Notes under the pieces: generated by a model
What the model was told of the DNA's origin: nothing
Seen by the model: the letters and a program-made list of their open reading frames with translations, nothing else
The model's database searches: none
Position numbers and translations under genes: made by a program
Shown here: one piece after another, positions 2,613 to 6,437 of the stretch
Layout: each line of letters opens with the position of its first letter
Numbering within the stretch: the first letter of the stretch is position 1
Origin: Candidatus Latescibacterota bacterium
GTDB lineage: Bacteria; JAAXHH01; JABIQT01
DNA: 6,437 nt
Direction: 5' to 3'
Assembly (NCBI GenBank): GCA_018667995.1
Contig: JABIQT010000340.1
Location: 1-6,437 of the forward strand

Positions 2613-3077
2613 TCACTTCATTCTGGTGCCTTCGTTTGCCACTTTGCGTCGGTCCTGCTCGACGCTGATGGCCTTCTCCACGAACTCAATCTTCTTCTGT
2701 ACCGACTCCGCATCGTCATAGGCCGGAAACTTCGCCAATAGAGATTCGAACTGCTCGAGAGATTTCTCATATTCCTGCGTCTGTATGTAAATTCCACCGA
2801 TCTCGTTCATGGCATGGGAGGCGACCTCGCTGCTGGGATCCGATTGAATGGCCTCCAGGTATACCAAGAGAGCTTCATCATATCGACCTGCCTCGCGAAG
2901 CGTCGAAGCGATCTCAAACGTAGTAATGTCGCCCAAAGGAGAACCATCAGAGCTGCCAAAGCCGCCGGTGTCGGTCCCCTCATGGAACAGAAAGCATGAT
3001 GTCAAACTCATAATAACTGCACAGAGAACTACTAAAGTCAAATAAGACCGGTTCTGTGAGGTCACAGACGGTTTCAT
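2613..3077 (-). CDS. small TPR lipoprotein
   Basis: 154 residues. The N-terminus is a lipoprotein signal: Lys and Arg in the first ten residues, a hydrophobic core at 12-25 and the lipobox LTSC with Cys28 as the predicted lipidated residue. A Gly/Ser/Asp-rich linker follows at about 33-50. Two TPR-like helical pairs come next, about 54-83 (REAGRYDEALLVYLEAI) and 87-120 (TQEYEKSLEQFESLL), then a charged helical tail. No catalytic residues are seen, so the protein is probably a periplasmic-face scaffold or partner-binding protein, in general style like small TPR lipoproteins of envelope assembly. The start is supported by AGGAG 6 nt before ATG 3077 and by the signal peptide beginning there. It is transcribed divergently from the large membrane peptidase gene, which also ends in TPRs. 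Its specific role is unknown. Confidence 0.85.
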   Translation of the reverse strand: MKPSVTSQNRSYLTLVVLCAVIMSLTSCFLFHEGTDTGGFGSSDGSPLGDITTFEIASTLREAGRYDEALLVYLEAIQSDPSSEVASHAMNEIGGIYIQTQEYEKSLEQFESLLAKFPAYDDAESVQKKIEFVEKAISVEQDRRKVANEGTRMK

Positions 3078-3282: not shown

Positions 3283-5625
3283 ATGCCTCGTACATTATTT
3301 ACCGCCCTGATTGATGCCGGACGTCGCCGAAGTTACCTCTTCGCACTGATCTGTCTGACCATTGCAGCGACCACAATGACCGCTCTCCCGTTGGTAGGAG
3401 TATTGGGGTACGAGTTCGCGTTCCTTATGGGTGTTTTAGTGGCCTTTGCTGCGGGCGTGACCTCTTCACTGCACTTCTCCCGTCGGCGCTCGGAGGCTAT
3501 CGGAGTCGGATCATCTGAGACTTCAATTGGGGCTGAGCTCTTCTGCATGTTGGTTCTAAATCTGTTTCTGTTGATTCCCCCATTTCTGATAATGTCCGCA
3601 AAAGGGCTCATCACTGGCTTGTGCAATTTCGAAGAAGCCACCTCATTCTATCTACTGATTCCAGTAATCACATCACTTCTTGCCACGGCTGTAGGCGCCC
3701 TATGCGGCCTAACTACGGCCAGGGGGCGCTATGCCTGGTTAATGTACATAGGCTATGCGCTCATAGTGATTGCCACTAGCGTTTACAGGCTTTTAACCGA
3801 ACCACCGGTTTTCGCGTACAACGACCTGGTGGGTTATTTTCCGGGACCTATCTACGATGAGGTTATACGACTGACCTCAACACTCATCATCGCACGTAGT
3901 CTTGTACTTCTTGAAGTCGTCGTTCTGATAATGGGAATTGTGCTTACGGTAAATCCTTCGTCGTGGCGATTGGAGCCGCGGCGCCTGCTCCGCCCAATGG
4001 ACTGGCCCCGGGAACTTGGGCTCAGTCTTACCAGGCTAGGATTTCTGGCTGGTCTGATCGCTCTTCTGACGACCTCGGTATATCGTGCTCAACTAGGAAT
4101 TGTGATTGACCGGGAGCATATTCAAACCGTATTGGGAGGCTTCAAACGAACGGAGCATTTTGATATTTACTACGACCTGAACTCGGACACTGGTAAAAGA
4201 ATTGATCTGATCGCTCTGGACCACGAATTTCAGTATGACCAATTGAGAAACTATCTGGAAGTAACCGCGGACTTTCGAATCACGTCATTCATCTACGCGA
4301 CCCCGGATCAGAAGAAGCGGCTTATGGGTGCACGGTTCACGTCCATCGAACGTCCTGGTTCAGACGAAATGCATTTGAACGATGCGGGGTTTCCACACCC
4401 GGTGATGAAGCATGAGCTGGCGCATGTGCTGTCGTCCGATTTCGGGAACCGTCTCTACGGCGGCAGCTATATGATGGGGTATCATGAAGGACTGGCCTCT
4501 GCCGCGGACTGGCGAGTAGACACCATGACCCTCCATCAGTGGAGCAAGGCTATGCGGCAGCTCAACCTGGCGCCGCCACTTAGTCGAATCCTGGGTACCG
4601 TTGGATTCTGGTCCGAGGCACCTTCGCGTAGCTACACGCTAACGGGCTCATTCGTCAGATTCGTCATCTCATCCTATGGCATTTCCGGATTCAAGCAGGC
4701 TTTTCCGGATGGCGACCTGGAAGGGGCCTTTGGCAGACCACTATCAGAGATGATAGCAGAATGGGAGTCTTTCATTGATGCCATTTCACTGACCGAGTCT
4801 GAACTAAATGCGGCAAGACAGAGGTTTCACCGTCCCAGCATATTTCGTAGGCACTGCCCGCACGAGGTTGCCGCGTTGATGGATGAAGCTTCAGTCCACT
4901 ATAGGCAGGGCCGATACGGCCAGTCGATCCGGTACTACGAACAGGTCCTGGATTTGGAGCCCGAAAATCCCTCTGCGCTGAGGGGATTGATGTTGGGGCT
5001 ATATCGCGACACTCAGTACAATCGTTCAGCAGCGGTAGCCGATACAATCATTTCCGATGAGAGGCGGACCGTCAGAATCCTGGCATCAGCCCTGCTTAAG
5101 CAAGGCGATATATCGTGGTTGCGGGGCGAGTTATCGGAAGCCCGATCGCGATACCTGCAGGCACTGGACCGCCGCGGGAATGATGCTATGGAACGGGAGG
5201 CTATGATCAAGATCGCAGCATTGGATCTTCCTGAGGTTAGAGATAACATTATAGGCTATCTCACATCAGATCAGAGCGAGGCCACCAAGGATATTCTACT
5301 CATGCAAGCAATTCAGCGAACGCCTGATTTTGCCATAGCACATTACCTCATGGCGCGCCGTCTCTACAACGGACAGGATTACGAGATGGCGCTGCCTTAT
5401 CTGCAGACCGCGGATAGCTTGAGCACGGCAAACCTGGTGCTCGATGGTGAGATCGCACGGTTGCTAGCTCACAGCTATTTCCACACTGGCGCTTATACCA
5501 CTGCACGCGCAGTTTTTTCACGGATAGCAGCTAGCACCAATTCGTCTGCCCGCATGGTCTGGGCCGAGTCCTGGCTTGCAAGGTGTGATTGGTTCAATAT
5601 CAATGGGAGAGACGTACAGGGATAA
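3283..5625 (+). CDS. polytopic membrane protein with extracytoplasmic gluzincin (peptidase MA-like) domain and C-terminal TPRs
   Basis: 780 residues. About seven hydrophobic helices lie near 18-36, 41-61, 85-105, 121-143, 151-169, 198-222 and 250-267. Positive residues (RRR 14-16, RRR 67-69, RGR 147-149, the basic loop 229-243) fit N-terminus inside and the rest outside. From about 286 (KRTEHFDIYYD) a peptidase MA-like domain runs to about 500. It contains HELAH at 377-381, the HExxH zinc site with Glu378 as catalytic base, and HEGLA at 401-405 with Glu402 as third zinc ligand. YTLTGSFVRF follows at 451-460, matching the later conserved helix of this family. TPR-like helices fill about 530-755, clearest at 531-564, 600-635, 684-715 and 722-754. 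The protein is thus a membrane-anchored metalloprotease with a protein-binding tail, likely acting on envelope proteins; its substrate is unknown. No Shine-Dalgarno is seen before the ATG, but the start sits correctly before the first helix. Its stop touches that of the convergent hydrolase gene. Confidence 0.9.
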   Translation: MPRTLFTALIDAGRRRSYLFALICLTIAATTMTALPLVGVLGYEFAFLMGVLVAFAAGVTSSLHFSRRRSEAIGVGSSETSIGAELFCMLVLNLFLLIPPFLIMSAKGLITGLCNFEEATSFYLLIPVITSLLATAVGALCGLTTARGRYAWLMYIGYALIVIATSVYRLLTEPPVFAYNDLVGYFPGPIYDEVIRLTSTLIIARSLVLLEVVVLIMGIVLTVNPSSWRLEPRRLLRPMDWPRELGLSLTRLGFLAGLIALLTTSVYRAQLGIVIDREHIQTVLGGFKRTEHFDIYYDLNSDTGKRIDLIALDHEFQYDQLRNYLEVTADFRITSFIYATPDQKKRLMGARFTSIERPGSDEMHLNDAGFPHPVMKHELAHVLSSDFGNRLYGGSYMMGYHEGLASAADWRVDTMTLHQWSKAMRQLNLAPPLSRILGTVGFWSEAPSRSYTLTGSFVRFVISSYGISGFKQAFPDGDLEGAFGRPLSEMIAEWESFIDAISLTESELNAARQRFHRPSIFRRHCPHEVAALMDEASVHYRQGRYGQSIRYYEQVLDLEPENPSALRGLMLGLYRDTQYNRSAAVADTIISDERRTVRILASALLKQGDISWLRGELSEARSRYLQALDRRGNDAMEREAMIKIAALDLPEVRDNIIGYLTSDQSEATKDILLMQAIQRTPDFAIAHYLMARRLYNGQDYEMALPYLQTADSLSTANLVLDGEIARLLAHSYFHTGAYTTARAVFSRIAASTNSSARMVWAESWLARCDWFNINGRDVQG

Positions 5626-6437
5626 TCAGAGGGATAGTGGCTGGTTTTCCCGAGCGCCAAAGCACTCCACGGACGCACCTTCCTGCTCGACTATATGACG
5701 CGCTTGGAAGACCATGGCATCTATGAGATTATCATCGTGTCCTGGATCGTGATGAAACAGGCCAAGCCGCGGCACATCTGCAATCATCGCCAGTTTTACG
5801 GAACGTTGGTAGTTGGAATGGCCCCAAGTGGGAAACCGGTCATACTGCTCTGGGGTAAATTGTGAATCATGAAAGAGTAGGTCTGCCTCCTTGCAGAATG
5901 AGACCATTCGCTGAAAGATCTCCTCGTCATCCGAGGGCGTGAGATCGTTATCGGGGATAAAAACCAGGACAGCTCCATCCGCTTCGATCCGATACCCTAC
6001 CCCGCCTCCGGGGTGGTTAATGTCCGCACAGGATATAGTTGCGCCGTTGATATCGCAGGATCTCTCCGTCACATTGTGAAAGTTGATATCAGCTTGCATG
6101 GCGTTGAAATTTACAGGAAAATGGATGCTCTCCATCTGGCTGATGAGAATGTCTTCTATATGCTTCTCTCCCTGATAATATCCGTATATCTGAAGCTGGT
6201 TACCAGGAATGTAAGCAGGGGTGAAGAAAGGAAATCCTTGTATGTGGTCCCAGTGGGCGTGGGTAAGAAAGAGAGATACATCGACGGGCGCACCTCGAGA
6301 AAGCAATTCGCCGCCCAGTTTTCGAATGCCTGTGCCGGCATCGAAAATAAGGCAACTACCATCATCGAGTATTACCTCAAGGCATGTGGTGTTTCCGCCG
6401 TATCGGGCCGTCTCAGGACCGGGTGTGGCTATCGATC
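5626..6437 (-). CDS. metallo-beta-lactamase-fold hydrolase (PhnP/COG1235-like), 5' end outside window
   Basis: The reading frame is open to the window edge, giving 269 residues; only about ten N-terminal residues seem missing, because the visible start SIATPGPETARYGGNT matches the strand-one region usually preceded by a short FWGTRG-type segment. The zinc motif is THAHWDH at visible residues 58-64. Further ligand motifs are INHPGG, PDND, LFHDSQFT, WGHSNYQ and LFHHDPGHDD near the C-terminus, the usual set of this two-metal hydrolase subfamily. Members cleave phosphodiesters or related esters in the cytoplasm; the substrate here is not known. A TTG at 6304-6306 could be mistaken for the start, but the conserved GGNT and DAGTGIR segments lie upstream of it, so the true start is beyond 6437. 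Convergent with the membrane peptidase gene, stop against stop. It is complete at the C-terminus. Confidence 0.92.
   Translation of the reverse strand, partial: SIATPGPETARYGGNTTCLEVILDDGSCLIFDAGTGIRKLGGELLSRGAPVDVSLFLTHAHWDHIQGFPFFTPAYIPGNQLQIYGYYQGEKHIEDILISQMESIHFPVNFNAMQADINFHNVTERSCDINGATISCADINHPGGGVGYRIEADGAVLVFIPDNDLTPSDDEEIFQRMVSFCKEADLLFHDSQFTPEQYDRFPTWGHSNYQRSVKLAMIADVPRLGLFHHDPGHDDNLIDAMVFQARHIVEQEGASVECFGARENQPLSL

Follow-up and report, generated by a model that had tools for sequence, protein, structure and literature searches.

Sequence and structure-based analysis of an apparently undescribed protein family joining seven membrane helices, a gluzincin peptidase domain and TPR repeats

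One gene in a contig of a Candidatus Latescibacterota bacterium (JABIQT010000340.1) raises the question of what a protein would do that carries a multi-helix membrane domain, a zinc peptidase site and a long TPR tail in a single chain. The window, by which we mean the whole stretch of DNA analyzed, comprises 6,437 nucleotides. A first-pass annotation made from the sequence alone had described this three-part fusion, had not recognized its membrane domain and had proposed, by analogy with the protease BepA, that it could survey envelope protein assembly.

Domain architecture and distribution

The gene and its three parts are arranged as follows:

3283-5625, + strand: whole open reading frame, 780 amino acids plus stop, encoding membrane domain, gluzincin and TPR repeats (open frame, homologues, AlphaFold2 model)
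3283-4092, + strand: seven-helix membrane domain, residues 1-270, N-terminus predicted inside (hydropathy, model, loop charges)
4093-4791, + strand: gluzincin peptidase domain, residues 271-503 (structure match to M9 collagenases; PF13485 in family member L138)
4858-5604, + strand: C-terminal TPR superhelix, residues 526-774 (Pfam TPR models, model helices, TPR structure matches)

That this is a real gene follows from its end-to-end conservation at 46-49% identity in the 15 other genomes sampled from the same phylum; a full-length homologue was found in all 16 genomes, one copy each. Hydropathy, motifs, Pfam TPR matches and the predicted structure all bear out the fusion of seven transmembrane helices, a peptidase MA fold and TPRs. 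TPR motifs occur from residue 530 onward and score above the Pfam cut-off (TPR_2, 44.8 bits vs 27), while Pfam gave no match before residue 500 and NCBIfam only weak TPR cross-matches. No Pfam or NCBIfam model spans the architecture, and literature searches for any description of a family with this domain order found nothing relevant.

AlphaFold2 modeling based on 72 homologues (alignment A4) resulted in a mean pLDDT of 95.1 and a pTM of 0.92 for the whole chain, so that membrane domain, peptidase and TPRs are predicted to form a single unit. This model was used instead of an earlier one built from 16 close homologues, in which the peptidase was poorly modeled (mean pLDDT 69.9). Whole-chain Foldseek and VIA matches were mostly TPR proteins, and among these TPR-dominated matches listed, none was to residues 1-270 alone.

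The closest named relatives are metagenome-assembled genomes (MAGs) deposited as Candidatus Latescibacterota, Gemmatimonadetes, Zixiibacteriota or uncultured bacterium. A single-sequence scan of genome contigs returned no relatives; other phyla were reached with alignment A1. Using an alignment-based scan with one genome per species, full-length relatives were found in records named Poribacteria, Myxococcales/Myxococcota, Melioribacter and other Bacteroidota. The first cross-phylum scan demanded the peptide pattern QKKRLMGA or YNPIxGYF, and the conservation of these stretches in the first set is thus partly selected; the zinc motif played no part in selection. Whole-genome profile searches were carried out in the phyla of a Poribacteria, a Myxococcales and a Melioribacter MAG, the sample names following deposited titles. 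Matches were obtained in 78/84 genomes for Poribacteria, 190/282 for Myxococcota and 119/296 for Bacteroidota, some of the latter peptidase-only. When the membrane domain was searched by itself, 106 of the 296 Bacteroidota genomes (about one third) matched; except for two weak matches and some fragments at contig ends, these matches sit in open reading frames of 690-815 amino acids. Among the Bacteroidota genomes sampled, the membrane domain was thus found as part of the fusion only, and a genome usually has a single copy. The peptidase domain also has relatives in Bacteroidota that stand alone, lacking the membrane domain (e.g. G379:C11 and G462:C57), in open reading frames of 260-330 or of 940-1130 amino acids. 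No relative of the protease was found in the viral contigs, phages and plasmids searched, so that, by these collections, its gene is neither mobile nor phage-borne. Proteins of this architecture thus form a real, widespread family that carries no name in the libraries searched and is apparently undescribed.

The peptidase domain and known zinc proteases

Three features define the peptidase site:

4411-4425, + strand: HELAH zinc and catalytic motif, residues 377-381 (HExxH in 72/72 and in 40/40 divergent homologues)
4483-4497, + strand: HEGLA, residues 401-405, with E402 as third zinc ligand (E402 in 112/112)
4633-4635, + strand: codon of the invariant tyrosine Y451 (112/112)

Across the 72 diverse sequences of alignment A4, no variation was seen at H377, E378, H381, E402, G403, Y451, K344 and G349. 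The zinc residues and Y451 were again invariant in 40 further members chosen as divergent, in which K344 varies. The homologue survey suggested in the first-pass annotation hence found H377, E378, H381 and E402 kept in 112/112 sequences, which speaks against a family of pseudoproteases. Among the 72 sequences, the gap between HExxH and the downstream glutamate ranges from 18 to 30 (20 in the 780-residue protein), while the gap between this glutamate and the tyrosine is almost fixed at 47-49. By analogy with M1-type gluzincins, Y451 likely acts as a transition-state residue.

The family belongs to the peptidase MA superfamily, as indicated by HExxH with a downstream glutamate, by PF13485 (Peptidase_MA_2) in L138 and by the gluzincin fold. 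L138 passes the PF13485 gathering score with 33.8 bits vs 32.4; matches were found in 8/27 members, most members other than L138 score below the cut-off, and none was reported for the 780-residue protein. The fold itself was independently confirmed in the predicted model, where vibrio-type M9 collagenases align to residues 271-503 (Z 15.4, 219 residues, rmsd 3.4, 13% identity), a structure match alone and the best non-TPR match among Foldseek candidates dominated by TPR proteins.

The family was also compared with its nearest known counterparts. PF13485 describes the same superfamily, but it is a loose model that covers the peptidase part only and does not describe the membrane domain. M9 collagenases are secreted, carry no such membrane domain and share only the fold. 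M1 aminopeptidases combine a gluzincin zinc site with a downstream invariant tyrosine, and fusions of ABC permeases with M1 peptidases join a membrane domain to a peptidase. The likeness to our family lies in the zinc site, the downstream tyrosine and this general layout. Membership in M1 was nevertheless rejected, with GAMEN present in 0/72 sequences and the HExxH-x18-E spacing in only 3/72. Membership in M48 was likewise rejected: the HPx4R motif, which constitutes the M48 active-site plug (PMC7950410), is found in 0/72 sequences, and no histidine is conserved besides the HExxH pair, whereas M48 enzymes have a histidine as fourth zinc-site residue. The integral-membrane M48 proteases Ste24 and HtpX resemble the family as multi-helix membrane proteins with HExxH; however, the family lacks the M48 plug, and its peptidase is a separate domain, predicted to be periplasmic, that follows the helices and is itself followed by TPRs.

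Membrane domain, topology and a conserved cysteine pair

The following features outside the peptidase domain are conserved:

3790-3876, + strand: periplasmic loop 3, residues 170-198, the last before TM6, with the signature PPVFxYNPxxGYFPGxIYDE (alignments)
3622-3624, + strand: codon of C114 in periplasmic loop 2 (cysteine pair counts)
4855-4857, + strand: codon of C525 in the linker between peptidase and TPRs (cysteine pair counts)

Based on hydropathy and the model, the helices span about residues 16-32, 43-65, 82-111, 116-144, 148-172, 199-222 and 245-266. Mean numbers of lysine plus arginine were calculated over 72 sequences with loops numbered along the chain, loops 1, 3 and 5 being periplasmic loops 1, 2 and 3. 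Values for the cytosolic parts were 2.65 (N-terminus), 2.76 (loop 2), 1.99 (loop 4) and 3.33 (loop 6), compared with 0.03 (loop 1), 1.04 (loop 3) and 0.28 (loop 5) on the periplasmic side. This clear positive-inside pattern strongly argues for a topology with the N-terminus inside, seven helices, and peptidase and TPRs outside. The location outside the cytoplasm that the annotation had predicted for the peptidase is thus also the one favored by loop charge.

Eleven columns of the membrane domain are at least 90% conserved (P36, L37, E44, C114, column 119, P174, G184, G188, Y191, D192 and R205). P174, G184, G188, Y191 and D192 of the signature loop are almost or fully invariant, G188 and D192 being invariant in the 72 sequences of A4, and R205 opens TM6. 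All 11 columns lie in periplasmic loops or at most 10 residues away, a region comprising 100 of 249 positions (p about 3e-5, the columns not being independent of each other). By this conservation pattern, the membrane domain does more than anchor the protein. In the 40 divergent members, D192 is replaced by glutamate in 14 and E44 by histidine in 13, and both changes co-occur in 12 sequences. This joint change may mean that TM2 touches the signature loop, or it may only mark a single clade. Members of one genus in the window's phylum (L005-L016) carry glycine-rich low-complexity repeats of varying length, inserted in the two cytosolic loops after residues 75 and 246.

No convincing match for the membrane domain was found in Pfam, NCBIfam or PDB sequences. 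A PDB sequence match to citrate synthase (0.011) and Pfam matches to Acyl_transf_3 (0.018), DUF6057 (0.19) and others, each seen in one or two members, were taken as chance. The conserved signature could have a function of its own, e.g. the handling of lipids or ions, and the peptidase would then be secondary. Another alternative is that the protein is part of a transporter or exporter in which the peptidase trims a peptide or lipid cargo moved by the seven helices, similar to permease-peptidase fusions. Such a role would fit the domain's own signature, an ABC-2 ATPase and permease encoded directly upstream in one locus (L047) and, for Ignavibacteria, downstream genes of the MacAB/TolC type. 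However, most loci have no adjoining ABC genes, and identity as an ABC-2 permease was rejected since the best ABC2_membrane match, the only Pfam permease candidate, had an E of 0.38 and occurred in 1/54 members. We regard this alternative as improbable.

Further, C114 and C525 are the sole near-universal cysteines of the family. Both are present in 109/112 sequences and both absent in the remaining 3, while neither was ever found alone (0/112). The top covariation partner of C525 is C114, by a wide margin. The losses look separate, as the three sequences without the pair share only 14-20% mutual identity and the nearest relatives of one of them (L236; 42%) keep both cysteines. From these counts, we strongly infer a structural disulfide that ties the base of the TPR domain to the membrane domain. 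Such a bond would need an oxidizing compartment, which agrees with the periplasmic topology.

Gene neighborhood and possible function

In Bacteroidota, murA (TIGR01072) lies directly upstream of the protease gene in 25/30 of the best loci, usually a few bases apart, and in 15/20 loci of a wider set. The downstream partner changes while murA is constant, with a tRNA nucleotidyltransferase-like gene often found downstream of the protease. The pairing would be explained if the protease processed or degraded a protein of peptidoglycan synthesis or remodeling and were for this reason co-expressed with MurA. Yet murA does not adjoin the gene in 30 Myxococcota loci, 30 Poribacteria loci or the relatives of the window, and MurA is cytoplasmic whereas the peptidase is predicted to be periplasmic, so that we consider a dedicated cell-wall factor unlikely, if still worth keeping in mind.

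Some Myxococcota carry a Lon protease gene that overlaps the start of the protease gene; in others, a DUF192 gene precedes it. In several Myxococcota (L209:10682-13708; L208, L213, L215, L220), a second protein of about 950-1000 amino acids, with TPRs flanking a Peptidase_MA_2-like domain, is encoded just downstream. An ECF-type sigma factor gene (cluster c19) is found slightly downstream in a few Myxococcota loci. Together with a single-copy, membrane-anchored periplasmic peptidase bearing protein-binding repeats, this could point to a site-1-type signaling protease which would cleave a membrane regulator in its periplasmic part and thereby report on the envelope. No recurrent anti-sigma factor or sensor partner was seen across phyla, however, and a signaling role appears quite unlikely to us.

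In the window and in L031, Gfo/Idh/MocA, M14-type and TPR lipoprotein-like genes adjoin the protease gene on the opposite strand. In the window, these neighbors and a further one include:

1119-2519, - strand: M14 zinc carboxypeptidase-like protein (PF00246, 3.4e-13; no NCBIfam model matches)
2613-3077, - strand: TPR lipoprotein-like gene with weak YbgF/BamD-type matches, divergent from the protease gene
5626-6435, - strand: metallo-beta-lactamase-fold hydrolase, RNase Z-like, whose stop codon abuts that of the protease with zero gap

A universal operon was sought across phyla and none was found, neighbors varying between murA, Lon, DUF192 and others. In consequence, gene context suggests envelope or proteostasis work only in broad terms. 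As leads only, murA and Lon fit a general role of this kind and not outer-membrane assembly specifically; a link to BAM or LptD was not seen in the gene context of the family.

This bears on the proposed analogy with BepA (YfgC) of E. coli, which combines a periplasmic M48 zinc site (HExxH plus glutamate) with a TPR domain that follows at the C-terminus and packs against the protease (PMC7950410, PMC8423444). The TPR and M48 domains of BepA remain tightly associated (PMC7950410), and the protein either breaks down LptD or helps it to assemble, probably on the BAM complex (PMC8423444). A periplasmic HExxH protease with a C-terminal TPR domain is the predicted arrangement in our family as well. 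However, BepA lacks the seven-helix membrane domain, and our family is characterized by its C114-C525 pair and its GYFPGxIYDE loop. The structural part of the first-pass interpretation stands, whereas the BepA-like function stays at the level of analogy. The best reading of the mode of action is that it would be somewhat like that of BepA, though the enzyme is not an M48 protease.

We favor, with moderate confidence, a periplasmic zinc endopeptidase that is anchored in the inner membrane, belongs to an undescribed family and is predicted to serve envelope maintenance. The seven helices would anchor the protein in the inner membrane with its N-terminus inside and place the gluzincin domain on the periplasmic face, and the TPR tail may recruit clients or partners. 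The C114-C525 disulfide would lock membrane domain, peptidase and TPRs into one rigid unit. The conserved patch on the periplasmic side (P36-L37, E44, the GYFPGxIYDE signature of loop 3 and R205) would face the peptidase and probably steer membrane-linked substrate toward the zinc site. The most likely task would be to remove or process proteins located at the inner membrane's outer leaflet. Architecture, conservation, distribution and a confident fold prediction form the firm part of this scheme, while the way in which the membrane domain would handle substrate, and the envelope role itself, are put forward as tentative suggestions. A bolder and more tentative version, which we think possible but do not favor, would see here a core, so far undescribed membrane-protease class shared by several phyla of diderms. 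Its seven-helix domain would have a new fold, contribute to the substrate path at the periplasmic surface of the membrane and be disulfide-clamped to gluzincin and TPR receptor, and its role in envelope biogenesis would be tied to peptidoglycan synthesis in Bacteroidota.

Being single-copy, near-universal in two sampled phyla, wide in two more and invariant in its catalytic residues, the protein probably fulfills a basic envelope task. The family offers concrete handles in the form of one catalytic glutamate, one cysteine pair and one membrane signature loop, and the conserved murA pairing in Bacteroidota provides a way into the question of how non-model diderms police their envelope.
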